From Dicyema japonicum (taxonomy: Eukaryota; Dicyemida; Rhombozoa; Dicyemidae): a stretch of 64,000 nt of DNA. The notes beneath the pieces were generated by a model. The model saw only the letters and a list, made by a program, of their open reading frames with translations, made no database searches and had not been told where the DNA came from. The translations under genes and the position numbers were made by a program. How positions within the stretch are numbered: the stretch's first letter is position 1; each line of letters begins with the position of its first letter. The stretch lies in the NCBI GenBank assembly GCA_011109175.1, contig RDEW01000016.1, positions 958,547 through 1,022,546 on the forward strand, read 5' to 3'. This document shows positions 13,618-60,126 of the stretch, one piece after another.

Positions 13618-13685
13618 AAATTATTTTAATTTTTTATTTATTTAACCCAAGAACACCAATAGTTAATTTAATTGTATTAAACTAA

Positions 13686-18430: not shown

Positions 18431-18549
18431 TCTATAATTAATAAATTGTTACACCAGAGGTTTTCTCTGAGAGATTGAAAGCACAATCTCGTCAAGGTTG
18501 GGAGATTCTCAAAAGCGGCGTTGATTCCGAGAAGGTTTCGGAATTGCCA

Positions 18550-20385: not shown

Positions 20386-21429
20386 TCCATTCTGCTTGAT
20401 TACTTTATGATTTTTGAATTAATTATTATTTATTTTATTATTTTTAATTTGTTATTTATAATTGTTAATTTAATTTGTATTTTTTAAAATTTGTATATTT
20501 CATTGTGGTGTTATTTATTACATTTTTTTCAATAATAATAATATTAAAAATTACACTTTTAAATAATCTTTTAATAATCTTTTTAAATAAATTACACTTT
20601 TTTAATAATCCCAGAAGTACCTGATGGAAATTTTAACTAATTCCCACATAGAAACCTCCCTCTGTAGTAGGAAAGAAAGGGATTCTTTTTATAACTATCA
20701 CATATTTGTTATATATCGCATGCCACAACGGTTACAGTGGTAATAAGGTCGGTCAGGGCGACTGTATTAACTATTTTTATTTTGTATTATTAATAAAGAT
20801 AATAAAGGTCACTGACCCTGTTAAACAGAATCGGATCTCGGAGAGGAAAACTGATAGAATAGAAAGGAGCTGGCTGATTGAGCGTAATTCCTTGCAAATC
20901 GTGAGGGGAAATGCGTTATAGATTATGAGAGCAGTCAGTAATTGCTAACTGTTAATTTTTGTCTTTAATTGGTTTAATAAATTTAAAAAAAAGAAGTTAA
21001 GTACTATAACGTTTATTTTAGTGTAACCGTAATGGCATGTGACATAGACCTATTGGGAACCACTCAACTGGATTGGATATATCGAAGAGTTGATAGTGTT
21101 TGACATACAAGTAGGCTTACTACTTTATTATTCTAGAAATCCGGGACATTTATTAATTTTGATAATCAAAATACGGGACTTTCCGAAACAAAAAAAATTT
21201 TCATTTTTGAACTGAATATACTTTATCTAGAAATTTTTGATTTTTTTCAAAAAATTAATGCACAGCATGTCAATGTTCAATTTGCAACTCAAAACTGTTT
21301 TGAGGGTTCTTCTTTCATTCAGCCTCTTTCTTTTGACCAATTGGAATTCATAGTTGAAAATATTCTTCTACAATATTCTTATCACAATTTCACATTACTA
21401 AATAATAAATATGATAATCTATGCTAATT
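20386..21429 (+). other. AT-rich interval with a LINE family B end at about 20811-20925
   Basis: Most of this interval is AT-rich and unassigned. At 20811-20925 the plus frame PVKQNRISERKTDRIERSWL continues to IERNSLQIVRGNAL and a stop, matching the last 35 or so residues of the family B nuclease protein. The unit 2 copy is at about 44672-44785. Confidence 0.5.
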
Positions 21430-21545
21430 AATCCAAGACTTTGAAGGTGTTAACTTCCTTTTCGATTTACTTGAGTATGAGTCCCTGAGACAATCCGGAT
21501 CCCAAGTGATTAATCACTGACGACGGTGACGTCACTCGTCAATCC
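21430..21545 (-). mobile_element. SINE body remnant
   Basis: GATTAATCACTGACGACGG followed by TGACGTCACTCGTCAA is the body of the tRNA-derived SINE in the orientation of the 9721 copy (compare CCACTGATGACGGCGTCACT). The tRNA head is missing. The same block occurs at 45290-45405 and 57120-57245. Confidence 0.5.
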
Positions 21546-22289
21546 CGTTAAACCATATTATTTTGTATTTTAACAGATTTTGATTAGTTTTTTATATTTG
21601 CTGCACCAAAGATAGTGTTTACTACTAAACAGAGTGCCCAGGATTTCCCCACTGTATCAAAACTGCTTTTAATTGACATACCAGTAGATGACGACAGACT
21701 CACTGTCATTATAACCTCATCGTCACACCCAGAAACCATTTAGCATTAACCAAAGCCTCCAAGGTTCAACTGAGCCCTACAAATAGTATGAAGAAATGCG
21801 TTTTTTTAATTTTGAGAGCAGTAGACATTTTTTCCTAGTTGTAACCCCGAAAACTTGTCTCATGGTCCAAGACAACTTTACCTTCCGTGTTAAATGAAGG
21901 GTGTTGCCAGAATACTAAAAACAGTCCGCAATCTTGATGACTTAAGAAAACCTGCAAAAAAAGGAACCTTGGATGAGACTAGTACAAGGGTAGTTGGGGC
22001 AGCACAAAGAAACCTTAATTGACTTCTTGCTATTATGTGTCCTTTGCGGTATCGATCATAATGATAACTTTATATTATCAATCTGATTTTTAGTCTAAAA
22101 GCGAATTTCTTGGAGGGAAAATCTTCCCCCAAACATACTACGGGAGAGACCGGCACTTGTCGCATCTCATTTAATAGTTCCCTCTAGTTAGTGAGTTATT
22201 CATCCGTAATTTAAAGTAGCGAGATTAGAACCCGTGAAAATCAGGATTTTGTCAAGCACTCCACTATAATTGAAAGTCATTAACAACTG

Positions 22290-22640
22290 TTGTCCAAAAA
22301 TAAAAGGATATTTTAAATCTTATTATTTTTCGGTAAATTCCTCAACTAAAAACAAGCTGAGAAACCTATTTCATCAACGGGATGAAAATAAACAGATTCA
22401 AAAATTGTATTTCATTAAAGATTTATTAGAATAAATATTGTCGTTTTTGATTGACAAGTGTCGTTATTGATAGGAAAACCCTATAAATGGAGTCTAAATT
22501 TTCTGTTAATAGAGTTCTTTCTGGAAAAACGACATATTCCTCTTTAAGATTACAGCTATCTAAAAATGTTTTTCTACATCAGTGTTTCTCAATTTTTTTC
22601 CGGGGAAATCTTTTTTTAACAATAAAATGTTATTTATTAA
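22290..22640. repeat. Dispersed non-coding repeat, four copies in the window
   Basis: A stretch containing TTGTATTTCATTAAAGATT, ATTTTCTGTTAATAGAG and ACGACATATTCCTCTTT recurs with divergence at 45590-45965, 54760-54960 and 56790-57010. It has no coding content and no recognised ends. It is probably an old non-autonomous element or the 3' region of a LINE. Confidence 0.45.
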
Positions 22641-22959
22641 CTATGGGAAAGAACGGCTGCTGACATTACGGAGTAAGCGTTTCCGCATACAACTGCAATC
22701 CCAATTCGTTGCCTCAGCAAGACCGCTTCCCACTAAATCTAGAAAATATTTTCAGGAGACTTTTTATTTTTATATTCAAATTAATTTAATATTGTTATAT
22801 GAAATATAAATTCTTGGTTTTAAATAAAAAATGATTTTAAAACATGAATTCTAATTTTGTAGGGATGTCTGGTTTCTGTAACTGAAAGCCATGCGCTTAT
22901 CGCCCTTTCCTCGAAGAAGATTTCCGAAGTAAAATTTCAACAATGGAATTGTCAGGCGA

Positions 22960-32285: not shown

Positions 32286-32384
32286 CGGTAAAATGCTGAA
32301 AATTTTGTTCTGAAAATTTTGTCTCCAAATTCTCAAGTGAATCTTGCATTTCTTTAACAATTATAAATTGAGAAACATGAGTAG

Positions 32385-32657
32385 TTAATTACTGAGTCCA
32401 GCGGATATGATCGAGTGGCTGTTACCTCTGACTACTGCCAGGGATATCCTTTGGAAAAGCCACTCGGTTTCCCGACGCTCCCTCGAGGCTTTGGTCAATA
32501 GACACCCAAGTGCTCTAAGGAAAGAGACCGTCTTGGGGCCGAAGACTCCGCTCGTCTCGACGACCACTGGCTGTACATGGAAACGGTTTAGGAGGCTGCT
32601 GTAAAGAAATAAAAATAAAGAAATACAGCAGCCTCCTAAACCGTTTCCATGTACAGC
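32385..32657 (-). pseudogene. Unit 2 copy: LINE family B end plus 34-bp hairpin
   Basis: Same as 9098-9370: VVVETSGVFGPKT ... ISLAVVRGNSHS on the minus strand, then arms 32570-32603 and 32624-32657 with the 20-nt A-rich spacer. The hairpin is unchanged between units. Confidence 0.75.
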
Positions 32658-33043
32658 TTTAACAATTGTATTCGTGTCTAAAGTTTATAATTATAAATAT
32701 CATTCACAAATTCTAAAGTTTATAATTATAAATGTCATTCACAAATTCATTGTTTTCAACATTTATATGCTTATATATTCATTTGTAAGATTATCTTCTG
32801 AATGGTTTAAAAAATAATAATTCAATATGGATTTTTCTTTGTTCTCAGCCAAAATGTTAGATTTAAAAAAAACTGCCCCAATTCTTTTAATGTGAATATA
32901 TGTGAATAAATAGTTTATTGTGAAATGTTTTAAAGAATTACTGTGCTAAAATATTAATGGTTTTATGACAATTCCACGTTATTATTGATGTCTCAAGGTG
33001 AAAATATTTCTTGTCAACTCTATTGTACAAAACACAGACTATA

Positions 33044-33348
33044 ATAATAATAAAGCCTTTTCACGAGAGCCATAGCATTTATAGCTCCGCATAGGCAGGA
33101 CACACACTTTATTTAAGTAAAGAACAGTTAATTTTAACTAATCGTAGAACCAAGGAATATCTTCACTTCTTATTTTCTTTTTCTTGTGTGAGTATCCTTT
33201 CTAGACAATCCAGTTCCACGGTGAGTATTCACTGATGACGGCGTCACTCGTCAAACCCTTTCTGCATCGTAGATGCGTGGAACTTTCCACCAGATGAACA
33301 GCAGCCGTAACCTAAGCCACTTAGGCCCGACACCTAACCACTATGCCA
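33044..33348 (-). mobile_element. Unit 2 copy of the SINE with target-site duplication
   Basis: Same element as 9721-10027, flanked by CACAGACTAT at 33034-33043 and 33349-33358. A few substitutions separate it from the unit 1 copy, so the SINE was present before the duplication. Confidence 0.85.
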
Positions 33349-34061
33349 CACAGACTATGGGAATATATTTTTTATAATGATGCCTTTGTTATTTAAAGGC
33401 CAATAATAAACATTATTTTTAAAGGCTAAGCTTTTCATATTTTTTAAGAAAATATGAATTCTCCTATATTCAAAACATGACAATGATATGTGATTGGTTA
33501 ATATAATTGCTAATTGGTAAGAAAGTTGAGATTGGGATATATTTTTGGTGATGACGCAGCTCTTGTTTACTGATTCCCTCAAGATTGATGTAACATTTCG
33601 TTCCCCTTCTTATATTCACAGACAAAATAATTGACTCAGAAGACATCTGATAAACCAAGTTTTTAGAATAAAGAATGGCCTGAAATATTGAGGAATCTGA
33701 TTAGCATCGTTCACTTTGGGGAGAACAAGGGAATTAATAGTAAATAATAACCACGGAATTGAGTTAATTAAAGTCTAATTAAGGGACATTCAGTTTCCAC
33801 TGTTAGAGGGAGACACGTATTTTTCTAGTATGATGTTTATCCATATCCGCTGTTATGGGAACCCCTCCAATTGAGTGCGCAAAAGATTAATTTTTTTGGA
33901 TACCGACCATCCACTAGGCGTCTCCTAAAATAGATAGATCACATGACACATCTTAAGATACGTAAACGGACAAAACACTAAAATATCTTTCGCTATGTAC
34001 GCAGTGGTGTGGAAATATTCGTAAAATCCTAATAGTTATAATTTCACTTGTGCAGCATTCA

Positions 34062-35047
34062 AAACAATCCTCCGAACCAACTTCTTCCAACCTCCTCGAT
34101 CGTAAGAGAGTTTCCTCTACTCGTCCAGGTCGTCCCCACTTCTTAGACGTTTGTTCACAAGCTTTAGATCTCCGTCAAGTGTTTCAGGTAGTGTAATACG
34201 CCGAGCGCCCAAGTCCATACGCAAGATATGTCCAAATAGCCTCCAGCGCATGTCAACAATGTCGAGACTCAGTGGACCCGTGCAACATCTCTTGTACAGC
34301 GATTCCTTTTTTATTCTTGCTGGCCAGTTCAGTCCTAGTAAGGATCTAAGTTGTCTTCGATTGAAAGAGTCTAGTCCAAGTTGTTCGGTTTTGGACGTTC
34401 CCCAGGTCGATGAATTGTACATTAGGATGGGCTTGACAAAGGCTTCATATAGTCTCAAACGAAGTGATGTGCAGGATCGTCGTTTGCCAATCCACTTTTT
34501 TTCAACTTGTTCATCGTTACCCAAGCGAGGACCTTCCTTCTGGCAATATCTTGACTATCTCCTAATAAAGAGCCAAGTTTGTCTGTTTTTTCGCCATGTT
34601 TCACTTTATCTGCTTTCTATTCTCCTGATTTCCACAATGTCAGTTTTTGTGGTGTTCATTCCAAGGAACCATCGGTTCAGCTCAGCAGGTGCCACCTCGA
34701 AGAGTCGAAGTAGAGCCGATTTGTCTTCTGACACAAAGTCGACGTCGTCCGCATAGGCAATTTCGACGATGTTGCCATCATATAACTTCCGAAGATCTCG
34801 TAATGCCGCCTCCAGATATATGACAAATAGCAGAGGCGAGAGGGAATCTCCCTGGGGACGTAAATTCACGGGAAAACGTCATACCGACCCGTACTCTGAG
34901 CTTCGTGTTAGATAGCAGCACTTTGATCATACTGACAGAATGAGGGTCCAAGAATTGTTCCAGTATCCTGAGAAGTAGACCACGGCGGACCGTGTCAAAG
35001 GCCCTAGAGAGGTCTATTATTATTAATGCACAAATTTTTTTTGTCAA
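34062..35047 (-). pseudogene. Unit 2 copy: LINE family A RT fragment, better preserved
   Basis: The same fragment as 10740-11765, but here the C-terminal frame stays open through DIVDMRWRLFGHILRMDLGA and ITLPETLDGDLKLVNKRL, ending SGDDLDE. Active-site box AYADDVDFVSEDKSALLRL at about 34.75 kb. One frameshift near 34865 separates the palm from DLSRAFDTVRRG. Confidence 0.85.
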
Positions 35048-35265
35048 GAGTCACAAAATCATGTCAACAAATGTGTTGGCGCCTTCCTGCATTGTGACCA
35101 ACTTGTTTATGGAATAACAGGAAATGACAATCATAAATCAATACAAATTGACGGTATATGGCGGTGAAGTATTAATCGTTGCTTCCAAGAGCTTTTGAGA
35201 CAATCTTTAAGATAGTTACTCTCTCTGGTTTTCCGCATTTTTGAAAAAAAATTCCTACCTGGGTG

Positions 35266-35555
35266 GCATAGTGGTTAGGTGTCGGGCTAAAGTGGCTTAG
35301 GTCACGGGTTTGATTCTCGCTGCTGTTCACCTGGTGAAAGGTTCAACGCATCTACGATGCGGAAAGGGCTTGACAAGTGACGCGTCATCAGTGGAGATTC
35401 ACTGCGGAACTGGATAGTCAAAAGGACATGCACACAAGAAAAAGAAAAAAAAGAAGTGAAGAGCATTCCTTGGTTCTCCCTTTACGATTAGCTATAATAA
35501 CTGTTCTTTACTCAAATAAAGTGTGTGTTCTGCACGAGCGAAACCTTAGACATCT
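35266..35555 (+). mobile_element. Unit 2 copy of the plus-strand SINE
   Basis: Equivalent to 11949-12235: TGGCATAGTGGTTAGG head, B box GGGTTTGATTCTCG, the same body. It differs by a one-base loss at GACGCGTCATC and a few substitutions. Confidence 0.75.
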
Positions 35556-36996
35556 TACGTGCTTATGGCAACGCGGTAGTGCTTAATTACTATTAAATTT
35601 TAAAACATGATTCCCAGATATTTGATGTGCTATTGGTAGAGAGAATTCGTTTTTTGAGGAGGATTCTCGATTTGAAGTACTAGTCCTCGTTTAAATGTAG
35701 TAAATATAGTCGGAAAGGACTTGGTTGGCAAAACTTCATATTATATTCATGGAGTCAGAGTGTTACCTATTTTTGTATGACCTCAGTGGCTGTTTGATAA
35801 TCATAGAAGCAGCAGGCGATGTGGATACCATTAACATTTAGCTGAGGAATCGTTAGAGAGTAGCCATAACAAAGGTTTGGTTACACATCACCAGACAGGA
35901 GCAACAATAAGAAAACGGAAATATTGCAAAACTATTTGAGGAAGAGAACTATCTAGAACAACGGATTCTGACATCATATTTGTATAATATGTTGGACACA
36001 TTATTATTACCTTAGAATCACCTGATTAAAAGTAAATAAAGTTCATAACTAAGTGACCCTAGACCGACATGGGGGAGGTCCTATCCGAAGTGGGAGAAAA
36101 TCCTGGATGACTTTACAGATACTTTGAACACATTGTAGGAACACTCATTAAACTTATTATCTTGCTCCTCGAAAACATATGAGAGTAACAAAAAGGATTG
36201 CTCTTGGAATGAGGTTCGAGGAAGTTCTGAATGATCAAGAAACCCTCTTAAAACCAAGGCAAAACATTATCAAAATCTGATTTAAGGTTTAAAAACACAT
36301 ATTCTAAACTTGGGGTGCTTCAAGACATTCTTTCAATTCAATGTCCATTACCAAGAGAGTGTGGGCATTCATATTGATGACAGCCATTCCAGGCACAGTT
36401 GTTTACTTAATGTTATCAATGGCTTTTCTACTCGTCCCCACCACAAAGAAATCCATCTCCAAGGTTTAAAACTGTCGCGAGCCACAGACTTACCTTGATA
36501 GCTAAAATGTAAATCATTGTCAAAAAATAAAATATTCAATTATTTCAAAGAAAACACTAACTAATTATTGATAATTAAATTTTAAGGCGTTTAGAATGCA
36601 CCTTCTTTACAATTCCCTCTCTATCTTTAACATTGACAAAATTGTTAAACAATTTAGCAACAATAGTGACAGCATCTCCGTAGGGATGTTCAAACCTTTG
36701 CAGACGTAGTGAAGGATTAGTTCCATAGTCCTTCTGAATTTTTCTGAATACGAACCTTTTAAGTAATTATAAATTATCTCCAATGTTAAATTCATATTTC
36801 GATCGATGCACTCCCATCTTTTTATTCATCCTTTTATAATAAGGAGAATTCAATTCTACCCGAGGAAAATCAAATCCGATGTTCAGCCAGAAGGCCAATG
36901 TAATGTAATTATAGGTTCGCCATATTGTAAAATTATTTTAATTTTTTTTTATTTAACCCAAGAACACCAATAGTTAATTTAATTGGATTAAACTAA
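35556..36996 (-). pseudogene. Unit 2 copy: unassigned interval and possible integrase remnant
   Basis: Equivalent to 12236-13685. The integrase-like remnant (FNIGD ... KKVHSKRF) lies at about 36585-36935. Nothing new relative to unit 1. Confidence 0.35.
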
Positions 36997-37380
36997 TTAG
37001 GTGATCCCGGCCGCCTCCATCAGGTCTCTCATCTTTTTTCGGTGGACCTTCCGAGATCCAACACAGCTTCTCTGAGGACGGGAGGGTTTTGAAAGAAAAG
37101 CAAGAGGGGTGATGTAAAGTCTTCTAGTAAGACCCAATCCATTGGAGCATTGTAGGAAGTTGGATTTTCGGCACAGAGCGGCGAATCCCTTCCCATTTTG
37201 TCCGATAAGGTCTTCCAGAGAGGTGGGTGTGAGACTGACTGTTCTCACGAGCTTGCCGATAGTTGTAGCTGATAGGAACTGAATATCACTGATTTTCTGT
37301 TTGTTCGTCCAGGATAGGTTGATAGACGCACAGGCGTAGCTGATAGATTGCTCAATGAATTGTTTATGTAATAGTTTCAA
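36997..37380 (-). pseudogene. Unit 2 copy: LINE family D C-terminal fragment
   Basis: Same as 13686-14069 with a handful of substitutions (ends KVHRKKMRDLMEAAGIT). Confidence 0.7.
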
Positions 37381-37546
37381 TGCTGGGAAAGGGGTTCTGA
37401 TGCCACCAAAAATAGAAAAAAAGATTTTAATAAATAAGTAATAATTTAATAATTATTATTTATATTATCGTAGAATTAATCTTTATATCGGAATATAATA
37501 TATAAAAATAGAAAAAATGTAGTACTGATTAAATTTTAATTAAAAT

Positions 37547-38111
37547 TCAATTCTACCAGGGTCTCCACCTCCTCTCATGCCGGAGCGGAATTGGCAGATC
37601 TTCTCGACATTCGGCAATGAACGGCATCATTAAGAGGGCATTAGAATCGGCTGGATTCCGTTGCCGGATCGAACCGACTGGTCTATTTGACAACGGAAGA
37701 CGCCCTGACGGCATGACCTCCTTTCCTTTTGAGCGAGGGCGAAACCTTGTATGGGATGTGACCTGTGTCTGCTCTTTCGCCCCAAGCAAAAAAAATTATT
37801 CACCGGGCAGACCTTCTTCTCAAGCAGAGGAAGTAAAAAATGCTAAATACTCTGATATCAGCGACAGGTACATTTTTCGCACCTGTCGCGATTGAAACTT
37901 CGGGGAACTTTGGCCCTAAAACGCTGAAGCTCCTGAACCATTTGGGAAAACTACTAACTGACAAAACTGGTGATCTTCGTGAGACGAGATGGCTCAAGGA
38001 GAGGCTCTCGTTGGCTGTTGTCCGTGGGAATAGCTTGTGCATCTCCAACAGCTGAATTAAAATTAACTATTCTTTTTCCATTTAAAAAATTTTGTAATAA
38101 AGGAAGTTGTC
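37547..38111 (+). mobile_element. LINE family B insertion present only in unit 2, 10-bp TSD
   Basis: TAATTAAAAT occurs at 37537-37546 and again at 38112-38121, and once at the empty site in unit 1 (14221-14230). The insert encodes, plus strand, a zinc-knuckle-like segment (GLHLLSCRSGIGRSSRHSA) and then LESAGFRCRIEPTGL, RRPDGMTSFPFERGRNLVWD and VTCVCSFA. After a shift near 37870 it reads AIETSGNFGPKT and LSLAVVRGNSLCISNS with a stop. The rest is 3' UTR ending GTAATAAAGGAAGTTGTC. It is a 5'-truncated copy, as expected of target-primed reverse transcription. Confidence 0.88.
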
Positions 38112-38121
38112 TAATTAAAAT

Positions 38122-38990
38122 AACAGTTATGACACCAGATGACAGCTGTTATAGGTAACGTCTGTGGCTCGCGACAATCGTAGATATAAAGAACCCGCTA
38201 TTATACATCTCAACTTACTAAAAGAGCTCCAGGAGAAATCTTACTGATAAAGCAATTCATAGAACAAATACTGAGGAAGCAATTTCATGGAACTCTTTTC
38301 GAATATCGACGTCAGGGAATTATTTCAGTGGTTATCACATAGGAACAATTCTCCAAGATCCGAAGGATTGGTGTGTCTTATACAAGACCGTAATCTGTTC
38401 TTCAACAATGCTGGAGAAAAGTGCAACCATAGTAACTCTCCAGGAAAGTGTCGACCATTTGACAACATGGTGTGGTCGTATGTTGAACAATGATTACCTG
38501 TGAAGACGTGATGAGGTGGTTAAATACAAACATCTGCACCTGTGTCTTCAATATGGAATTAAGAAGACTAAGAGACTCGAGACAGACTCCGTGCAGTCTA
38601 TTTTTGTTAACGAGTCTGTAGAGATTAAAGAGGTACAACAATAGCCACGGACAATGAGTGATACAAAATAAAAACCGGACATATTTGTTGTCGATAGGAT
38701 TATCCATATAAAAACTCTAATGGGGAATCACATCCCAAAAATCGCTAAAGTATGTCGAGAAGGCACACAAGTATGATCTCTTAGCAAGCGAACTCGGTTA
38801 ATACACAAAAAAGTATAGAGTGCCAGTTGACTTGGGACTGTCAGCAAATATTACAAGCACCATTTAGAAGCCTTGAAGCTGGAATGTCCTTGAAAGCCTA
38901 TGTACAGACTGTCACGATTAAGAAGACAACAGAGAGTATTCTTAATGGATACAAAGATTAATTGTGGACGACGATGAGTAGGTAGGTAAG
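38122..38990 (+). pseudogene. Unit 2 copy: LINE family C C-terminal domain
   Basis: Equivalent to 14250-15120, with an extra 25-30 bp deletion near 38150 and a stop in the RRH segment. The KPDIFVVDR segment is retained. Confidence 0.55.
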
Positions 38991-39935
38991 AGTTACCCCT
39001 AAAAATATAAATATGGGTTGGACACACTAGAAGGAGATATGGGAATAAGAGGGAGTTAATGGCACACATTTCTTCGAAAGAAGGAGAGGATTATTTGGCG
39101 TTTTTTAAGGTCATGTCTAACATAACTACAGGAAAAAAATTAAAAAAAGTAAATAAAAATTTTTGCAAAATACAAGATACTTAAAAAACGCTTTCAAGTT
39201 TAAAATTTCGGTGTTTAAATAAATGATGTAGAAGGATATTTATTAGATAGCTGTAATCGTGAAGAGGAATATGCCGTTTGCCAAATAATCGACGAGTTAG
39301 TTCCGGGGTACAATCAGCGACACGATGTTAAAGTACTTTACTCGAGTTATAAAATTTACGATAAAAGTATTCAAATATGTCGAGACAACCGGAGCGATAA
39401 GCAACAAGTACCTGATCGTCCTTAACAAACTCGGTAGTATTGCCTCGTTTAGAAGCCACTATGACAACTAAATGTGATGTTCATTCAGTTGGTCTCCATA
39501 GAACTCCTGGGGGAGACACTGCCATCAATAAAGTGGCAATAATAAATTAATCAGTTTATGAAATGACCTACTTTTTCAATAAAAAAATTAATTCACATAT
39601 TTCTGTCGATTTTGTCAAAATAACTCACTAACTCGTAGGAAAGTATTAAGTGATACGTCTGTCCCATAGATCTGTCAACTTTGGGGTGTAGACAGACAGT
39701 GTACAAGTTCGGGACATTCAAAAAAGTGATTTGCAGTCAACTCATAACAAAAAACACCATTCTCATCATTCAGATACGTGCGTATGTTAATGAGAGGATA
39801 CGTCATTTATTTATTTGAGAGGATACGTCATAAAGTGAGGAGGACATTAATTAAACAAGACTACACAAAAGTTAAACTAAATAAAAAATAAAAGTACAAT
39901 GTGTGTTAATTATTTTTAAATGGATTAAATTTAAA
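38991..39935. other. Unit 2 copy of the interval 3' of HPRT
   Basis: Equivalent to 15121-16083, including the unassigned frame at about 39223-39425. A deletion of about 30 bp near 39035 relative to unit 1 (about 15155-15190) is the main difference. Confidence 0.4.
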
Positions 39936-40693
39936 TTAGTTATTTCGATAATGATTTATTGCTGTTTGGTTAATGACGCAAATGTCCCTAAGATCTCTGA
40001 AATGTTCATTATAGTCTATTCCAAATCCCACGATAAATCTGTCTGGTACACTAAACCCCACATCAGCTAATAAATTTAAAATGCAAACATTCTGGTGTCC
40101 CATTCTGTCCTGTAATTCGTTTTTGGCAGAGAATTGCTAACCTGACTGAATTTGGTTTAAAATCTGAGATGACTTTAATCAGTTTAGAGAGGGTTAACCC
40201 AGTATCGAGTATATCATCGACAATCAAGACGTTCTAACAATTAACAGGAGTCAGTTACATTCTGATATACACATTCAAGGCAATCTTCAAGGGCAATAGT
40301 CACGTTTCCTGTAGATTTGTCGTTCTATCAATATAATAACGTTTCTACCGCGTAACTGCTAGCTTTGATGAATTCTGGTCTGATTTTCACATAATCTGAG
40401 TTTGAACAGTCAGAATTCAGCCTTTCAATAGCATCCATAAGAGCATGGAAAAACTTAAAGCCCCTTTGAGGAGGCACACCATGACTAGTTCCTGCCCTCT
40501 TGAATCATTCCAAATTTCCTGTGCCATTGCATCAATTCTTAATAATTGAAAAAGCTACCGATTTATAATCACATCGCGGCTAATCATAACACTTTCAATA
40601 TGATCCGTTAATATTGGGTGAACTCCATTCTTATCTGTGTGAATACATAAGTCGGGGATCTTCAATGATTCATAATCAAACCGTAATTGTCAT
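39936..40693 (-). CDS. HPRT1: HPRT-like gene, unit 2 copy, same apparent 1-nt deletion
   Basis: Same six-exon structure and intron sizes as 16084-16838. Differences include an in-frame 3-nt insertion near the C-terminus (CVINQTA in place of CVIKTA), and IPDLC for ISDSC just after the first intron. The T-run in exon 3 is one base short exactly as in unit 1 (about 40455). If the lesion is real, neither copy can make a full-length enzyme without a frame correction. Confidence 0.88.
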
Positions 40694-40998
40694 TTTATTA
40701 ATATTTTAGGTCAGTATTTATTAAGAATATTTTTTAAAATTAAATCACAATTTTTTTTAATTTAAATAATAAAATAATGAGGCCTTAGTATTTTATTCAA
40801 AAACTCGAAAGATTAAAAATAAAAATAATAAAAATCAATTTTTGTTATAAGTAAGGCGACTATGCCACGTGGCGCCAACGTTTGTGTAGTGGATACTTGA
40901 ATTGAAGATTTTTTTGTTTGTTTCTTGTGTTCCTCCTCTTCTCTTTTGGCTACAGGGAGCTTGAATTGTTATCGTACGTCATATGATTCACTATTTCT

Positions 40999-41478
40999 TT
41001 GGCGCTAGATATAATCATAAATTATATCCAAAAAGGACCATTAGTCAACAACCGTCCAGAGGAGTCCCCACTGAACGGCAACTCCTTTATGTCCGAGCAA
41101 GCGTGGACTGCTGAGGGAGGCTGGGATCACCCTAATTTTTTCATTCTGGCAATGACGGTGGTTTCTGGTCCAATAGATTTAATTTAAATTTAATTAAAAA
41201 ATTTTTTTGAACCACAGTTTTAAAAGTTTTTAACAATTTTGAAGAACATACGAATTTTTGACTTTATGGGCAAAATCGGCCTAATTATCACTTTAGTGTT
41301 CGTTTTTGCCTCTCACGATAGCAACAGGGATCAACTAGAGAACTTACTGAGTTTTACGGACCTCATGGATTCTGAGAGTTGCCAGACATCCAAGACTCTT
41401 GAAGTTAAAAAAAACTTTTTGCTTATTCCTCAGTCGTCCTACAGCAATCCAAAGGAACCTGAACCTGTTAATGACTAA
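40999..41478 (+). other. Unit 2 copy of two unassigned open frames
   Basis: Equivalent to 17143-17622. The first frame differs at two residues (NGNSF for NDNSF, TAEGG for TAKGG); the second is identical. The lack of change in two copies is compatible with either a recent duplication or constraint. Confidence 0.3.
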
Positions 41479-41917
41479 AATTATAATTTTTTAAATTTTC
41501 AACTAGAACCACATGACTATAAAGGAGATCAACAGCTAACTTCACAATCGTACATTTTAAAAGTATACATACAAGATAACTATTTATTGCCCCACGATGA
41601 CTGGGTTATAGGAGAAAAGTCATCAAAGTGATCCAAGACCGACAATGGAGAGGCCAACGCCGGCGAGAAAGATATGCCAAGGACTGTAGGAGTATTGTCT
41701 AGTTAAAGGTTGATAAAATTGTTAATATATTTTTAAATAATTTCAGTCATAAAGAGCCATAAAATATCTAACTATCTTGTATTCCTTAACCATAATGTAA
41801 AAACCGCATTTTAATGGAAAATTTATGAGTCAATAAATTTGCCATTAAAACATAATTTAATACTATAATTAATGACATTTACAGAGTTGACCAGTTAACT
41901 CCTTAACTCTCTCGGTC

Positions 41918-42290
41918 TTGATGAACATTTACAAACAATACATCGAACCATGCTTCTCGTACGCGTGTGCTTCGTGGGGACCTTCATTATCATGGACGAA
42001 CACTAAGAAAATCGAGGACGTTCAAAAGAAGGCTTTCAGAATGACGGAGCGGTGGTCTTGTGGGAGACACAGAACCGGACCGACTACTCTGGAGGCCCTC
42101 ATTAAACAAAACTCCGGCATGCGGGAAGGTGGCCCTGCAAATACAGTCAGCCGCCCAGTACGAGCTTGTGTGGGTACGAGGGAGGAGCACCGGGAAAGAA
42201 TGAGGATTTTGGCGGAACGCATCGGATCACGTGATAGTTAGTTTTGGTTTTACCGTGGTCTTGAGGTGCTAAATAAAATAAAAAACTCTA
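41918..42290 (+). pseudogene. Unit 2 copy: LINE family D 3' end
   Basis: Equivalent to 18038-18430. A one-base difference near the end (GIGSRDS for GIT-stop) changes the final residues. Confidence 0.7.
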
Positions 42291-42405
42291 TAATTAATAA
42301 ATTGTTACACCAGAGGTTTTCTCTGAGAGATTGAAAGCACAATCTCGTCAAGGTTGGGAGATTTTCAAAAGCGGCGTTGATTCCGAGAAGGTTTCGGAAT
42401 TGCCA

Positions 42406-43098
42406 TCATTCAAATGGTTCTCGGTTTATATCCGCTGATGTCTTTTCCTGCTGAGCCAGAGATTTATCAAAGATGAGTTTCCAAAGGGGACTTTGTATAG
42501 TTATGTAATCGTGAGATCTTCTTGATATTCCGTTTTTGATCAGTTGTTTCGACTTTGTAACAAACTGTCTTGTCGAGAAATAGTTTCTGTTTTTATTCGA
42601 TAATATTTGGAAGACCAGCACAAACAATCACGACTAATTAATTTAAGGAAGAAACCCAAGGGAGGACGTTTGCTTGTGTCAACCAAATCCATCCTTCAAC
42701 AGTCCATTACAGGCTTTCGCATCCGAAAAGAGTTAGAGGTCCATCTTCTTCCATTTTCATAAAAAGCTCAACTGACAGTGACATCACTTCATTCTTCGGG
42801 AGAAGATTTTTCATAATGATAATCTTCACCAGTGAAGTTGGTCGGGGAGAAAGTGAAAGGATCTTTTCCAACAATTGTGTCGTGTCAGAAGTACTCGTCG
42901 ACTCGTGGATGTGATCCTGTCGACGAGAATTGACCCTTTACTGAAAAGTTCACATTTCGAATTCGAAACCACGACAGTCATATCCGATGTCATTGGATGT
43001 ATGGATTCTGAAAATATCAGCATTGTCGGGGGAGGGCTTTTCTTCAGACTGTTCTTGCCTCTTATATAATCATGTTGAACCGTTAACCATATGATCAA
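42406..43098 (-). other. Unit 2 copy of the unassigned coding-like region
   Basis: Equivalent to 18550-19165. Here an extra T breaks the frame after CWKRSFHFLPDQ, which argues against this exact frame being under selection. Confidence 0.3.
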
Positions 43099-43526
43099 TA
43101 GAAATGTAACGACGTACTTCTAAGAGCATAACAAACTTAACGACAGATTGACTAAAGATTCCAACTTGCAAGGTCATAGCTACATAATTGGGAGATTTCT
43201 TTGTGACTGGATCGTGTTTAAGATATTCAACAAAGTCAGGTCGTATCCTTTAAAAAATTCCTTAATTCTTGACTCAGTAAATAATTATTAGGACGATTGT
43301 CATTAGACTCAAGTACACCTCAATGTCTTTGCAATGGATAAGCTTATATCGATCATGATCCATGAGAATCGATAATATCCTATTAGAAATAATATAAATA
43401 AAAAAAATATTTGTTTAATTTAATAAATTAAGAAAATATTTTAATAATATCCATGATCGTTTTTAAACGTAATCATTTTTGTTTTCTTGTGGTGAGGACC
43501 AAATTAACTTTATAAAAATAAAATAA

Positions 43527-44246
43527 ATGAAATTAATAGCAATATCTATCTTATTCAAACACACAGAAAACGCAAAAACAGACTGCTTGTCACAGGCAAG
43601 CGATCTTGACTCCTTTGGTTACTTTATCCGCTCTTCGTAATCTATATAGTAATTTCTAGAGTTCGTCAGTTCATAAACTTTGCCTCTAAGCAAATCACGA
43701 TGAGAACTCCCTTCAATACCCACCAGACCATCAAAGAAGAGGGTATTTTTTAAAGCTCATGTTGGTAGAGTACAACTGTCACGTGTTTGTTCGACCCGAC
43801 GGACTCTGTGCTGTTGCCGTAACCGATTTAGAGTACCCAGAAAAGATTGCCCACTTTCTGCTGAACAAAGTGAGACATAATTTCCATTTTAGGTTATGGA
43901 TGAATTCTCGGCTACTTTTAGGGGCGTTTCATGGAATTCTCCTGCGGATTGGTCCATCGAATATCCTACCTGATGGAGTACTTACATAAATATCAGGATC
44001 CAAAAGAGGCTGATCCGTTGGTGAAGACCCAACAAGACCTGGATGACATAAAAATCATCATAGTTTGGCCGTTTTGTGAAAGTAGAAAAATACCATACAA
44101 TCGATGCTTGAAAGAGGGGAAAAGTTGGACGATTTGGTGACGAAATCAGAACAACTTAATTCACAAGCGAGATTCTTTTATACGACGGTCTGTGTTTATG
44201 TTTATTGTAGGCGAAAAAGGCTAATCGGTGCTGTAATTTATTCTGA
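43527..44246 (+). CDS. YKT6: YKT6-type R-SNARE, unit 2 copy, same apparent 1-nt deletion
   Basis: Identical layout to 19666-20385, offset by 23861 bases. Intron positions and lengths are the same and the end AKKANRCCNLF is retained. The one-base deficit at CCTACCTGATGG (about 43965-43976) is shared. I saw no coding difference between the two units in the exons compared. Confidence 0.92.
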
Positions 44247-45589
44247 TCCATTCTGCTTGATTACTTTATGATTTTTGAATTAATTATTATTTATTTTATT
44301 ATTTTTAATTTGTTATTTATAATTGTTAATTTAATTTGTATTTTTTAAAATTTGTATATTTCATTGTGGTGTTATTTATTACATTTTTTTCAATAATAAT
44401 AATATTAAAAATTACACTTTTAAATAATCTTTTAATAATCTTTTTAAATAAATTACACTTTTTTAATAATCCCAGAAGTACCTGATGGAAATTTTAACTA
44501 ATTCCCACATAGAAACCTCCCTCTGTAGTAGGAAAGAAAGGGATTCTTTTTATAACTATCACATATTTGTTATATATCGCATGCCACAACGGTTACAGTG
44601 GTAATAAGGTCGGTCAGGGCGACTGTATTAACTATTTTTATTTTGTATTATTAATAAAGATAATAAAGGTCACTGACCCTGTTAAACAGAATCGGATCTC
44701 GGAGAGGAAAACTGATAGAATAGAAAGGAGCTGGCTGATTGAGCGTAATTCCTTGCAAATCGTGAGGGGAAATGCGTTATAGATTATGAGAGCAGTCAGT
44801 AATTGCTAACTGTTAATTTTTGTCTTTAATTGGTTTAATAAATTTAAAAAAAAGAAGTTAAGTACTATAACGTTTATTTTAGTGTAACCGTAATGGCATG
44901 TGACATAGACCTATTGGGAACCACTCAACTGGATTGGATATATCGAAGACTTGATAGTGTTTGACATACAAGTAGGCTTACTACTTTATTATTCTAGAAA
45001 TCCGGGACATTTATTAATTTTGATAATCAAAATACGGGACTTTCCGAAACAAAAAAAATTTTCATTTTTGAACTGAATATACTTTATCTAGAAATTTTTG
45101 ATTTTTTTCAAAAAATTAATGCACAGCATGTCAATGTTCAATTTGCAACTCAAAACTGTTTTGAGGGTTCTTCTTTCATTCAGCCTCTTTCTTTTGACCA
45201 ATTGGAATTCATAGTTGAAAATATTCTTCTACAATATTCTTATCACAATCCCACATTACTAAATAATAAATATGATAATCTATGCTAATTAATCCAAGAC
45301 TTTGAAGGTGTTAACTTCCTTTTCGATTTACTTGAGTATGAGTCCCTGAGACAATCCGGATCCCAAGTGATTAATCACTGACGACGGTGACGTCACTCGT
45401 CAATCCCGTTAAACCATATTATTTTGTATTTTAACAGATTTTGATTAGTTTTTTATATTTGCTGCGGGAGAGACCGGCACTTGTCTCATCTCATTTAATA
45501 GTTCCCTACTAGTTAGTGAGTTATTCATCCGTACTTTAAAGTAGCAAGATTAGAACCCGTGAAAATCAGGATTTTATCAAGCACATCCA
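44247..45589. other. Unit 2 copy: LINE family B end, SINE body and a 534-bp deletion scar
   Basis: The family B end lies at about 44672-44785 and the SINE body at 45290-45405. At about 45465 (TTTGCTGC then GGGAGAGACC) sequence corresponding to unit 1 21607-22140 is missing. The third copy at 57.3-57.8 kb retains that segment, so this is a loss in unit 2. Confidence 0.6.
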
Positions 45590-45965
45590 CCATAATTGAA
45601 AGTCAATAACAACTGTTTGTCCAAAAGTAAAAAGGATATTTTAAATCTTATTATTTTTCGGTAAATTCTTCAACTAAAAACAAGCTGAGAAACCTATTTC
45701 ACCAACGGATGAAATAAACAGATTCAGAAATTGTATTTCATTAAAGATTAAATTAGAATAAATATTGTCGTTTTTGATTGACGAAGTGTCGTTATTGATA
45801 GGAAAACCCTATAAATGGAGTCTAAATTTTCTGTTAATAGAGTTTTTCTGGAAAAACGACATATTCCTCTTTAAGATTACAGCTTATCTAAAAATGTTTT
45901 TCTACATCAGCGTTTTCTCAACCTTTTTTCCAGGAAATCTTGTTTTTAACAATAAAATTTTATTT
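45590..45965. repeat. Unit 2 copy of the dispersed non-coding repeat
   Basis: Equivalent to 22290-22640, with many small indels and clearly more divergence than in the gene-bearing parts of the unit. Confidence 0.45.
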
Positions 45966-46131
45966 TATTAACTATGGGAAAAAACGGCTGCTGACATCAC
46001 GGAGTAAGCGTTTCCGCATACAATTGCAATCCCAATTCGTTGCCTCAGCCAGACCGCTTTCACTAAATCTAGAAAATATTTTCAGGAGACTTCTTATTTT
46101 TTACATTCAAATTAATTTAATATTGTTATAT

Positions 46132-46528
46132 TTATTATTATTTTATTTATTAACCCCGGATACACCAAGAAAGAAGTTAAAGTAAACAACTAATTCAGCG
46201 ACAGGTACATTTTCGCACTGTCGCGATTGAAACTTCGGGGAACTTTTGGCCCTAAAACGCTGAAGTTCCTGAACCATTTGGGAAAACTACTGACTGACAA
46301 AACTGGTGAATCTTCGTGAGACGAGATGGCTCAAGGAGAGGCTCTCGTTGGCTGTTGTCCGTGGGAATAGCTTGTGCATCTCCCAACAGCTGAATTAAAA
46401 TTAAAATTAACCATTCTTTTCTTTTTCCTTATAAAAAAACTAATTAAGTGTATCAGTTTCCATTCACAGAAACAGAGTCCATCCGGAATCAACATAAAAG
46501 GTAAGACGTCCATTACATGCAGTTGTGG
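46132..46528 (+). mobile_element. Composite insertion with a perfect 23-bp direct repeat, unit 2 only
   Basis: Positions 46109-46131 are repe​ated exactly at 46529-46551; unit 1 has the sequence once (ending at 22800). The insert starts with an A/T-rich tail-like run followed by ACCCCGGATACACCAAG, which on the minus strand looks like a LINE 3' end. It then contains family B C-terminal coding sequence on the plus strand (LRETRWLKERLSLAVVRGN) nearly identical to the 37.9-38.05 kb insertion. Opposite orientations within one insert indicate a chimeric or inverted integration product. Confidence 0.75.
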
Positions 46529-46940
46529 AAATTAATTTAATATTGTTATATATGATGTATAATTGTTGGTTTTAAATAAAAAATGATTTTAAAACATGAA
46601 ATCTAATTTTGTAGGGGATGTCTGGTTTCTGTAACTGAAAGCCATGCGCTTATCGCCCTTTCCTCGAAGGAGATTTCCGAAGTAAAATTTCAACAATGGA
46701 AACATCGCAATGATCGCAATGGAAATTTTTTTTCTCCATAAAATAATATTATTTTAGAATGGAATTTTTCATTAACAAGAAATATGTTTTTACCTACTAA
46801 TTTTATTACTATTTACCTTCCGTCATAAATTTAGTTAAAATACTGAAAATGTCAGCAAGAAAAAACAATTTAGTTTAACTTTGGGGGATTTAAGCATTTC
46901 TAAGAAATATGATATCCACACTCTCAAAAAATTGAAAATA

Positions 46941-51509: not shown

Positions 51510-51744
51510 CAAGTCCTGACTTTGGAGGTCCCAGAAAAGACTCAGCGTCGTTTGTCAAATAATCAAAGCTCACGGCAGACCCTGGACAGGGGAGCTAAAC
51601 CATGTGTCTAGTATTATATATAAATTTTATGAAGTAAAAAAAGTCAAAATTTTGGTAATGTCAAAGAAGGTAAAATTTAATTTTTAGGTCAATAAAATCA
51701 AAATTTTTATTGATTTTTAAATTTTTATTGATTTTTATTTTATA

Positions 51745-53896
51745 CCTCAGTACGTTTTCGACACTGAGAGGTTACGCTTCGAAGAATCCACCAAATGTCG
51801 TTATAGTGCAGTTCTGAGAGATAGCATCAACAGTATTAACCAAAATCAGCCGACAAACAGCTTATGGGATGAAATAGTGGTTGCTATCCAAAACACAGCC
51901 TTTAGTGTGCTTGGTCACATCACCAAATCTCGTCACAAACAATGTAATCCGGATATCGGACAACTCTCTGTAACACAGAAAGAGCTCAGACTCCGGATGG
52001 AAAACACAAACGCTCCGGAAGATATCAAAGTACTGCGCACCCAGAGAGGGAGAGTCTTAACGAAGATCAAACAAATACAAAGATTCCTTGCCAAAAATGA
52101 AGCTGAGGAGAAAATCTCAGACATATTAAAGTACAAGAACGGACCAAGAATGTTCAAAGCAATCCGGCTTCTTAGCAGAGAAAACTGTCCAATTTCGTTA
52201 ACTGTCCATGACAACCTTGGTCACGACGTTATCGGGACCATTAACAAAGCAAACGTTCTGGCATCCCATTTTGACCTTATGTTCAACAAACAGGACGCGG
52301 CTGACCAAGCAATGAAATCTCGGAAGTCTTACAAGTACACTCTAACTAGCCCTATTACCATATCCGAAACTCAACAAGCTATTAAAAAATTAAATACCGG
52401 AAGATCTGCCGGACCAGACTTCATTACTGCAGAACTTTTACAATACGGCCCGGAGGAGCTAATTGAAATGATTACTAACATTTTCAACCGGTCTCTCGAG
52501 GGTGCAGATGAACTGGAACTGGGAAAAGGGTGGCTAATTCCACTACAAAAACCGGGAAAAAGTAAAGGCCCCCCTCACAACTTCAGACCTATTATACTCC
52601 TAACCTCCATACGAAAAACATTATCCCTCATTGCTTTAAACCGAATAAAGGAGAGGGTGAACATATTTCTTTCGGACGGCCAAAGTGGATTCCGGACGGG
52701 CAGGTCCACGGCTGACGTGGTATGGGGGCACAGGTGGTATTGTGCCCTGTGCCAAAAATACAAAAAATCTATTGAGATACTTGGTATCGACATGTCCCGT
52801 GCGTTCGACTCGGTGGACCGTGGAAAACTTATGGAAGTGTTGGAGAGTTTTCTACTGCCTGACGATGTCAAAATAATACACTTACTCATGCGGAACACTC
52901 AACTTGCCGTCAAAATTGGTGACTCTACCTCTAACTTTTTTTCGACCTCACGTGGAGTTCCACAGGGGGACTCACTATCCCCGGTCCTCTTTATTGTCTA
53001 CCTTGAGGCCGCACTAAGAGAGTTCAGACCCCTGGTTGGCAACAATTATAACGAGATAATCTACGCGGACGACCTGGACTTTGTTTCTGAGGATATTCAA
53101 GTACTTCAACACATGCTTAACGTTCTTCCACACGTATTCTCGAAATGGTTCTTAACCGTTAACACCGATAAAACAGAGTTCACAACACTTACACGCAATG
53201 ATCGAAGATCGGACGAGTCTTGGAGAAAGCAAAAGAAGGTGGGTTCGCTTCTCGGGGACTCAGAAGATGTTTCTCGGAGGAAAATCCTCGCAATGTGTGC
53301 ACTAAAGAAAGTATCGAATATGTGGGGTCATAAGAAGAGGATGGGATTAAACACCAAACTCAGAATATATAAGGCTTTTGTCATCCCCGTCCTGACCTAC
53401 AATTCAGGCACTTGGGGAATCTCTAAACAAGAGATGGACCGTCTTGACGCTTTCCACAGGACACAATTGAAATCAGTAATCAAGATCAAGTGGCCTAAGA
53501 AGATCTCAAACAATGACCTCTACTCGAAGTGCAAATCTGGTATACTATCCGAGGAGATCTTCAGATCAAGATGGAGTCTCTTTGGACATATCTTACGTCT
53601 AAATGCTCAAGTACCCGCGAATATCGCCATGGAAAACTACCTAATGCATACGGGAGCCGGTTTCCGTGGAAGACCAAGAGTCACACTCCCAACTATTTTG
53701 AATGGAGACCTATCGGCTGTGGGACTGAAGCTCACTTCCGCAGACGACCTAGATACCTTAAGGGAACTGGCACGAAGTAGAGGGTCCTGGAAAAGGCTGA
53801 TAGAGAGGATGGCTAGAAATACGGCACAAGGGAGGCTTGATTAATTTTATGACTTCTCGGGAGTGCTTTAAATAATAATAAATAATAATTTTTATA
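51745..53896 (+). pseudogene. LINE family A, long open RT frame, 5'-truncated
   Basis: One uninterrupted frame runs from about 51745 to a stop ending at 53844. It starts inside the linker after the missing endonuclease (FDTERLRFEESTKCRYSAVL). RT blocks: LNTGRSAGPDFITAELLQYG, LIPLQKPGKSKGP, DGQSGFRTGRSTADVVWG, LGIDMSRAFDSVDRGKLMEV, RGVPQGDSLSPVLFIVYLEA, YADDLDFVSED (catalytic Asp pair), WFLTVNTDKTEFTTL. The C-terminal region is FVIPVLTYNSGTWGIS, RWSLFGHILRLNAQ, SADDLDTLRELARSRGSWKR. The 3' UTR is short and ends TCGGGAGTGCTTTAAATAAT with a (TAA)n-like tail. It is recent by its intact frame, but without its endonuclease it is not autonomous. Confidence 0.9.
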
Positions 53897-55169: not shown

Positions 55170-55557
55170 ATCGCCCTAAAAATCATTTTTGTTTACCTTT
55201 GATGAGGATTAAATTGACCTTATAAAAATAAAAAAATGAAATTAATAGCAATATCTATATTATTCAAACACACAGAAAACGCAAAAACAGACTTCTTGTC
55301 GCAAGCGATCTTAAGTCCTTCCGTTACTTTATTCGCTACTCGTAATCTATACAGTAATTTCTAGTTCGTCAGTTCATAAACTTTGCCTCTAGGCAAATCA
55401 GTGAGAATTCCCTTCAATACCCACCAGACCATCAAAGAAGAGGTTATTTTTAAAGCTCATGTTGGTAGATTACAACTGTCACGTGTTTGTTCGACCCGAC
55501 GGACTCTGTGCTGTTGCCATAACCGATTTAGAGTACCCAGAAAAAATTGCCCACTTT
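55170..55557 (+). pseudogene. YKT6: YKT6 third copy, truncated, introns retained
   Basis: From ATGAAATTAATAGC (about 55236) the sequence follows the YKT6 gene through exon 1, intron 1, exon 2, intron 2 and most of exon 3, breaking off inside EKIAHF at 55557. Small deletions disrupt both introns (loss of AG-AG at intron 1, loss of GG at intron 2) and exon 2. Because intron sequence is kept, this came from DNA duplication, not from a reverse-transcribed mRNA. It is fused directly to LINE sequence. Confidence 0.88.
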
Positions 55558-55790
55558 CGCGTCATAGTTGACTCTAAGGAGTCTAGACCTTTTCTACCAA
55601 TGCTGGAATTCCACAAGGGGACACGCTATCACTTGTATTGTCTATCATATTTTCGAGGCATCTTTGAGAGATCCAAGATAACAAATTGGATGTCTGTACA
55701 ACCAATTTATTGAACTCGTCTACGCGGATGATGTTGACTTTGTCACGGAAGATCTGAATTATCTCAAAAAATGAAGGGATCTTTGAAAAG
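55558..55790 (+). pseudogene. LINE family A RT piece fused to YKT6
   Basis: A shifted series of frames gives the PQGDxLSPVLF-like block (from GGAATTCCACAAGGGGACAC) and then ELVYADDVDFVTEDLNYL. It lies directly against the broken YKT6 exon 3, so a LINE or a recombination event replaced the gene's 3' half. Confidence 0.7.
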
Positions 55791-58138: not shown

Positions 58139-60126
58139 ATGGAAGGCCCCTTAAGTAAGTGGACAAATGTGGTACAAGGCTGGCAGTACAGGTGGTTCGT
58201 CATAGATATTATGAACGCTGAACTTCTCTACTACACAGTAAGTCTTATTTTAACCAAAGTCAAAAGATAAAATGGTCAAAAGATTACCCAGAGGTCGCTT
58301 CAATCTAAAAAATGCAGCCATTGGAGTAGACGACTTGGATAACAGCAAATTCACTATTTTCTGCGAGGGTGACCACGTGGGTTCCAAAACCTTTTACTTC
58401 CAAGGTTCCTAAAGTTCATTACTATAGCAATGAACACTCTCGAGCGTAACACGTGGGTGAATGAAATTGCGAAGGTTATAAACAACCGTACCTCTGTCCT
58501 ATCGGAAGAAGCCGTGGCAAATGAGAGTATGAATCAGATCCAGTCCGATCTGGCTGAGGGAAACCGTCTTGTAGGTCAACTTGGGGGGACTCTCAATGAG
58601 CTCCGAAAACTCGTCTCCAATTTCGACAATGCGGCCGTTTTGGTTAATTCTCTTGAAGTTCCTTTCTAAATAACCTATTTAGAATCAACTGATGGGACTC
58701 AACCTCGTTTTCATCAACCTGGGGAAGAAAATTGTACCGTTTCGTTTAATTGAAGACCACCGATATGATTGCGAGCCCCGTGGAGGACTCACAAAGTGAG
58801 GAAGTCGAATTTTTTGACTGCAACGAAGACTCCTTTGACGAACCTGATAAAGAACATGTGGACGAAGACGTCTTATACAGTACATATAATAGCTGTAATT
58901 GTCATGGTAACTAGAGGTGGGGATGCTGGGTCGGGGGAGAGTATAATAAAGCACCTGATAAAGCAGGTTCAGATAGGAATGGACCTCACTAAGATAACAC
59001 TACCGACCCATATTCTCGAAAGGCGGTCTTTTTTGGAAATGCTGGCTGACTTTTTTTCTCATTGTGACCTCTTTTCGAATATTACTGACGAACCTGACCC
59101 ACATGAACGTATGATCTGTGTTGTTCGAGCTTTTCTATCTTGTTTTCACGCTGGAAGAGATCCTGAAGTTGTCAAAAAGCCTTATAATCCAATTCTGGGC
59201 GAGATTTTTCGTTCCCATTGGAATTTGACTGATGACTCGTGCCCGGTACATAAATCTGGGCCATTTCCTTGGGCACGTGAAGGTGACATGACTATGCTGG
59301 CTGAACAGGTCTCTCATCATCCTCCTGGTTGGATTTGTTTGATAACTCTAGTGAGTGCCTTTTTTGCAGAAAACAAAAAGAAGGGTTTTTCATTTGAAGG
59401 TCAGATTTGGACCAAGTCGAAGTTTCTCGGGCTACACGTGGTTGTTCATATGGTTGGGACAACTGTGATCAGGTTAGAAGAGCATGATGAAACCTACACA
59501 ATCTCCTTTCCGTCCGGATATGCGAGGTTTATTTATGTTCTAATGAAAGATCGATTCTTACTGTTCCCTGGTTCGAATTAGGCGGGAAAGTTCAGTTGAC
59601 TGCGAGTACGGGGTACTCAGCTCAGGTAGAGTTCCACACGAAGGTGGTTGAGGTCTTATTCTAGCCCTCATACAAGAATACAAAGAATCAGATTACTGCA
59701 CAGATTTTTGCTCCAGGAGAAAGCTCTCCGTTTTCCACTGTGAAAGGGGCATGGAACGGATTAATGACTGCAACCTTTGGGGAGAGGTTCTGCAAGTAGT
59801 TATTAGTAGTCGGAAGTGTTCTTTGACGCTGGGACTTCCCCGACTGTAAAGAAACTCATACGACCCATAAGAAACCAGGAGCCAAACGAATCTCGACGGT
59901 ATGGAGTGTGGTGAATGTAGTCTGTGGTACGACGTGACTATGTGTCTGTACAAGGGAAACGTTGTAGGAGCGACGGGACATAAGCACAGACTGGAAGAGA
60001 GACAGAGACATGACAAGAAAGTGAGAGAAGAGAACGGGGTGGTTTATAAACCAAAGGTGGTAGAGTGGGTTATTTTAGTATTTTGAGTTGATTGGGGATG
60101 TGTGGAAGTATAAGCCTGTAGATTGA
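58139..60126 (+). CDS. OSBPL9: OSBPL9-type oxysterol-binding-related protein: PH domain, FFAT motif, ORD
   Basis: Lipid-transfer protein acting at ER-Golgi/endosome contacts. The PH domain starts [20 protein letters not shown] and reaches [14 protein letters not shown] motif EFFDCNE (58807-58827; consensus EFFDAxE), flanked by acidic residues, should bind VAP at the ER. The lipid-binding ORD has [37 protein letters not shown] (the family signature), [42 protein letters not shown] and [10 protein letters not shown]. It ends [19 protein letters not shown]. Introns: 58238-58259 (22), 58405-58427 (23), 58658-58682 (25), 58734-58755 (22), 58895-58916 (22), 59328-59351 (24), 59527-59549 (23), 59644-59664 (21), 59899-59920 (22), 60057-60078 (22). 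One further junction after TFGE (59787 to 59806 or 59809) leaves the frame one nucleotide short. The protein is much smaller than human ORP9 because the PH-FFAT linker is short. Confidence 0.95.

Follow-up and report, generated by a model that had tools for sequence, protein, structure and literature searches.

The genes of this window (the whole stretch of 64,000 nucleotides analysed here) are interrupted by miniature segments that are very probably spliceosomal introns of the U2 type, about 20-26 nt long, belonging to a dicyemid or to a very close relative and recognised, in an otherwise ordinary spliceosome, by intron definition. Miniature dicyemid introns are already known; what is added here is their mean length of 23.4 nt (33 unselected introns) and an adenine that recurs at the seventh position from the intron end (-7). 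These features bear on the way in which a spliceosome that looks ordinary manages to find introns with hardly any donor signal.

As de novo gene finders deprived of homology gave mostly long spurious introns, in part through weak codon bias, introns were called by homology, with a spliced protein-to-DNA aligner that required only GT..AG ends and applied one constant penalty, without any preference for length or motif. In the four genes of the window it placed 13 introns, four in each of the genes for ALAS, HPRT and YKT6 and one in a gene for an oxysterol-binding-protein-related protein (ORP), with the lengths listed in Table 1. When the 256 possible pairs of terminal dinucleotides were compared over ALAS, HPRT and YKT6, GT..AG came out on top, with a score of 1736 against 1615 for the runner-up and a median of 1528, and returned 12 introns of 21-26 nt; several of the runner-up pairs may be the same gaps, shifted. 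An intronless reverse-transcriptase ORF of 707 codons elicited no intron call in any of five alignments with versions of its protein in which half of the residues had been mutated. The de novo calls were set aside. With a flat length prior they comprised 38 introns in PRP8, of which 33 had 19-26 nt; among the other five (61, 41, 209, 18 and 101 nt) the 41-nt call is exonic by comparison with human PRP8, and the four others lie at or beyond the ends of the gene. At other loci 94 of 348 de novo introns measured 15-30 nt, the rest being noise in non-coding flanks, and another run produced five introns, three of them within matches.

Homology supports 17 introns in the window, all of 21-26 nt, and about five more can be read by eye; the total of 24 that the initial annotation had counted in the four genes is plausible. 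The two introns that it quoted, of 22 nt (58238-58259) and 24 nt (59328-59351), are exact, and the GT..AG ends that it ascribed to all of them are those preferred in the dinucleotide comparison. It also held that removing the segments restores family alignments, and this is what the scores say: spliced ALAS matches human ALAS2 with 477 bits over 390 residues, against only 142.8 bits for a single open frame, spliced HPRT and YKT6 reach 146 and 157.6 bits, and the Pfam PH domain of the ORP gene rises from 18.8 bits in the unspliced piece to 49.8 bits in the spliced protein. The range of 21-26 nt that it proposed for every gene holds for these four, whereas the lengths called genome-wide also include 20, 27-30, 33, 35 and 42 nt.

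Table 1. The ORP gene and the introns of the four genes of the window, with positions in the duplicated copy where there is one.
Feature	Position	Strand	Length (nt)	Phase	Second copy	Basis
ORP gene, PH and ORP domains	58139-60126	+				Pfam PH and Oxysterol_BP matches
ORP intron (YYT/SKDK)	58238-58259	+	22			PH domain restored; A at -7
ORP intron	58405-58427	+	23			PH domain restored; A at -7
ORP intron	58658-58682	+	25			by eye only, without homology support
ORP intron	58734-58755	+	22			by eye only, without homology support
ORP intron (HHPP/VSAFF)	59328-59351	+	24	1		spliced alignment, both references
ORP intron	59527-59549	+	23	2		spliced alignment to C117 paralogue
ORP intron	59644-59664	+	21	0		spliced alignment to C117 paralogue
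ORP intron, candidate	59787-59809	+	23			by eye only; out of frame as read
ORP intron	59899-59920	+	22			by eye; aligner picked same acceptor
ALAS intron	8210-8232	-	23	0		spliced alignment
ALAS intron	8059-8084	-	26	2		spliced alignment
ALAS intron	7671-7693	-	23	1		spliced alignment
ALAS intron	7480-7505	-	26	1		spliced alignment
HPRT first intron	16805-16826	-	22		40660-40681	by eye only
HPRT intron	16683-16703	-	21		40538-40558	spliced alignment
HPRT intron	16470-16493	-	24		40325-40348	spliced alignment
HPRT intron	16379-16403	-	25		40234-40258	spliced alignment
HPRT intron	16212-16233	-	22		40067-40088	spliced alignment
YKT6 intron	19882-19907	+	26		43743-43768	spliced alignment
YKT6 intron	20009-20031	+	23		43870-43892	spliced alignment
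YKT6 intron	20202-20224	+	23		44063-44085	spliced alignment
YKT6 intron	20327-20349	+	23		44188-44210	spliced alignment

The ORP gene scores 145.3 bits with Pfam Oxysterol_BP (58769-59578), has ORP8 as its best PDB match, and shares 205 of 299 residues with a paralogue elsewhere in the genome (contig C117). Its first two introns are supported by the restoration of the PH domain on splicing. The paralogue has an intron of 23 nt at the position of the ORP intron 59328-59351, and alignment with it yields introns of 24, 23 and 21 nt, together with a single call of 134 nt (59787-59920) that spans a diverged exon, and inside which two short introns can be read by eye. The paralogue (locus L006) also carries a 35-nt intron that is absent from that place in the window gene, and this is a gain or a loss between the two.

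ALAS lies on the - strand (about 7000-8300), as does HPRT (about 16100-16840, with a second copy near 40200), and YKT6 on the + strand (19830-20390, with a second copy near 43700). HPRT and YKT6 belong to a direct duplication of about 14 kb (9022-22948 and 32310-46701), whose main pieces, about 98% identical, pair 9022-14230 with 32310-37546 and 14221-21604 with 38112-45465, the copies being devoid of any difference over about 19500-21000. Selection was considered as the reason why the HPRT and YKT6 copies stay alike, and was discarded, because this last stretch exceeds the length of YKT6. A third, truncated copy of YKT6 (55181-55558) is 91% identical, and alignable over 28 residues only. One-base frame offsets with respect to relatives are seen in HPRT near 16610 (-) and in YKT6 near 20107 (+), each of them in both copies of its gene, and again in PRP8 (L040/L041) and at three kinase loci (L046, L048 and L066), in genes that are otherwise well kept; they are possibly deletion errors of the assembly, the alternative being a real, shared frame offset. 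The window also contains, at 51721-53841, a LINE-like element whose reverse-transcriptase ORF is intact over 707 codons and scores 111.6 bits with Pfam RVT_1.

The same sizes prevail in the rest of the genome (64.67 Mb in 191 contigs). In PRP8, aligned over two stretches of the human sequence (473 and 939 aligned residues), all 20 introns have 20-26 nt, so that the range covers 33 of 33 introns when ALAS, HPRT, YKT6 and ORP are counted with it. At 30 kinase loci, the first of the match list, with boundaries set from distant references, 124 introns were called; 90 were kept because both flanks scored at least 8, and 77 of these measure 20-30 nt, as do 24 of the 34 set aside. The 13 accepted introns outside that range measure 12, 33, 42, 65, 68, 108, 267, 312, 320, 665, 927, 1056 and 1289 nt; the long ones are probably for the most part artefacts of alignment ends, and the 42-nt intron, with strongly aligned exons on both sides, looks real. 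By sequence comparison, intron positions are held in common with animal relatives.

Several features point to the kinship of the organism. Pax genes are animal genes, and Pax domains are found at four places in the genome. In the Pax6-like gene (L078) the paired domain is interrupted by an intron of 24 nt and phase 0, and the homeodomain by one of 23 nt and phase 1 and one of 25 nt and phase 0; an additional call, of 191 nt, falls towards the end of the paired domain. This succession of phases, 0, 1, 0, is the one published for Pax6 of Dicyema acuticephalum, at its introns a, c and d (PMC2222250). With the size of the genome and the class of its introns, it makes a dicyemid much the best reading, dicyemids being the known case to which the initial annotation had pointed. 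The mean near 26 nt that it attributed to dicyemids agrees with a published figure of 26.2 nt for 16 introns (PMC2222250), but another, for 41 introns of D. acuticephalum, is 24.93 nt (PMC2483917), and the introns described here are slightly shorter still, their mean lying below both values (p 0.002 against the second). For D. japonicum the published genome size is 67.5 Mb, which the 64.67 Mb found here resembles, and the mean intron measures 38.2 bp; median introns are given as 27 bp in Dicyema sp. and 57 bp in orthonectids.

What, then, marks such introns for removal? The set used to look for signals comprised 110 introns, 20 from PRP8, 13 from the window and 77 from the kinases, the last having been limited to 20-30 nt, which truncates their mean. 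Donor positions +3 to +6 carry 0.8 bits in total (0.6 without PRP8), and the exon preferably ends in A/C-A-G. Near the other end, 64 of the 110 introns have an A at -7, as against 34.8 in composition-preserving shuffles (z 6.3), and every group contributes (PRP8 13/20, window genes 6/13, kinases 45/77); outside the set it is met in four of four further ORP introns and in four of six Pax introns. T is favoured two bases earlier, at -9, and T-N-A ending at -7 is found in 40 introns where shuffling gives 15.7 (z 6.9), with weaker excesses at -8 (z 2.7) and -11 (z 3.0). Among 513 size-matched GT..AG decoys taken from exons, 31% have A at -7, much as at their other positions. The signal is nonetheless modest: it occupies one position, of about 0.24 bits, 46 of the 110 introns lack it, and among 23 low-confidence kinase introns A stands at -8 in 14 and at -7 in 10.

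The comparison of introns for a branch-point consensus, which the initial annotation had recommended, has a double outcome: an A at -7 within T-N-A on the one hand, and, on the other, no dominant branch-point word in the hexamer measure over the 110 introns, where the top hexamer reaches 11.8% and CTRAY 12 of 110. A 6-mer motif model is in line with the positional signal, gaining 32.4 in introns and 9.1-13.3 in shuffled ones. That no hexamer stands out would account for the 2008 survey of 41 D. acuticephalum introns (PMC2483917), which saw no branch-point signature. Branching probably takes place at this A at -7. Of the 64 introns that have it, 47 place it 15-17 nt downstream of the donor; three bases separate it from the final YAG, and with the AG so close, no room is left for a separate polypyrimidine tract. 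When a cross-validated score built on these weak signals was used to tell 133 introns apart from decoys bounded by GT..AG in exons, the AUC was 0.92, or 0.93 when A+T content was included, and nine of 566 decoys ranked above the median intron.

The components expected to read these signals look ordinary, judging from their matches. U2 has 25 matches, 22 of them above the cut-off, and each of the 15 copies read carries GTAGTA. In U1, ACTTACCTG is intact in three of the four copies read, none of its 11 matches exceeding the Rfam cut-off (the best at 69.0 against 69.5). A match to SF1-HH (80.5 bits) and a U2AF-large-type RRM piece (85.8 bits) were found, and PRP8 is present, aligning with human PRP8 along its length. 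We may picture the process, tentatively, as follows. The short intron would be recognised as a single unit, by intron definition, U1 pairing weakly with the GT and the exon bases that precede it; SF1 and U2 would select an A within a loosely defined U-N-A, some 15-17 nt past the donor, and the AG seven positions downstream of this A would be used, while intron length and richness in A+T would take over part of recognition and exclude most decoys. The specific proposal that dicyemids branch at an A placed at -7, in a loose U-N-A and 15-17 nt beyond a donor nearly free of information, so that a fixed spacing replaces sequence words, seems to us rather more credible than not. It is new relative to the 2008 survey, and later literature may possibly hold a report on dicyemid branch points.

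Other readings of the segments have to be weighed against spliceosomal introns. They could be cut from the DNA rather than from the RNA, in the way internally eliminated sequences are excised in the somatic nuclei of ciliates: lengths of 20-30 nt resemble those of the shortest ciliate elements, and elimination of DNA in somatic cells is reported for dicyemids. This is nevertheless most improbable, because the ends are GT..AG, the best of the 256 pairs, with no TA..TA among the eight best listed, because excision from DNA would make an A at -7 unnecessary, and because the Pax6 phases match published Dicyema introns that were defined, according to the article, by comparing genomic and cDNA sequences (PMC2222250). 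Even less credit can be given to translational bypassing, or to retained inserts that the ribosome would skip or translate in frame. Half of the kinase introns of 3n length (15/30) have no stop and could be read through, but the other 15 do contain one, where shuffling predicts 14.6; stop-free 3n introns are therefore not avoided, a test that is weak as they are harder to detect. The GT..AG ends are fixed, and lengths modulo 3 are near even in the 110 introns (41/38/31), so that most of them would break the frame if retained. Mimicry of introns by decayed pseudogenes or errors of assembly, to which the single-base offsets in HPRT, YKT6 and PRP8 and the location of HPRT and YKT6 in a duplicated block might lend some colour, is hardly conceivable: insertions and deletions would lack GT..AG bounds and would not cluster at 20-26 nt, spliced PRP8 follows its human counterpart along its length, and the dinucleotide control excludes it.

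A more serious competitor accepts the introns and denies the branch point, taking the A at -7 for some other preference of the 3' end, with branch points scattered. The narrowness of the signal, a fraction of a bit at a single position, speaks for it, as do the peak at -8 in the low-confidence set and the fact that the 2008 dicyemid survey found no branch-point signature (PMC2483917). We hold it unlikely, though well within consideration, since the A and the T that stands two bases ahead of it are enriched jointly, as would be expected for pairing with U2, since U2 keeps its GTAGTA, and since exonic decoys that also end in AG display no peak. Of the two readings, a branch A set at a constant distance from the 3' end seems the more credible.

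If it is correct, a geometric lower limit emerges, with about 15-17 nt between donor and branch and seven more to the end of the intron; for an animal spliceosome whose snRNAs are canonical, this would come close to the tightest arrangement known. There is also a practical side to the matter: annotation pipelines and aligners whose minimum intron is set at 20-30 nt or more will misread the genes of this genome.

Miniature introns are known from other lineages as well. In Trichomonas vaginalis the branch A lies close to the AG, and in Paramecium stop-free introns of 3n length are depleted, whereas those counted here are undepleted. Published values make the introns of T. vaginalis short as well, at about 25 nt. 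They are few, however, and strict conservation marks both their branch-point sequence and their 5' sequence, while here both signals are degenerate and introns frequent. Paramecium tetraurelia, a ciliate and not an animal, has introns of 20-35 nt with a mean of 24.8 (PMC2222250), 5' sites that are largely GT(A), and, in the 2008 survey, no branch-point signature. The nucleomorph of Bigelowiella natans likewise combines GT(A) donors with the lack of such a signature, its introns of 18-21 nt being shorter still and belonging to the reduced nucleus of an endosymbiont. The closest likeness is with the dicyemids themselves (D. acuticephalum, Dicyema sp. and D. japonicum), whose introns are described as very short and uniform, with 5' splice sites that carry little information (0.5 bits in the literature, 0.6-0.8 here) and a similar A+T content (69.9% published, 70.9% here). 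What sets the present introns apart is their slightly shorter mean and the positional A, where the 2008 survey saw no branch-point signature.

Two further observations concern splicing in this genome. A match to U12 (85.4 bits, G000:C68:163471-163599) and one to U6atac (37 bits for a cut-off of 33, G000:C34:237761-237858), one of each, suggest that a minor spliceosome has been retained. The U12-type intron pattern has six matches, against one in the reversed control; two of the six lie in the window, at 19383-19416 and in its copy at 43244-43277, with stops in all three frames around the first, and the one on C141 shows no clear coding frame. No U12-type intron can be claimed from them, and none of the 110 introns begins with GTATCC. 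The introns of PRP8 (L040/L041, contig C87) have a composition of their own, about 90% A+T and less than 1% C in a repeat-like succession of TTA and TAA; the exons between them contain 33% G+C, and the introns of the window genes and of the kinases do not have this composition.
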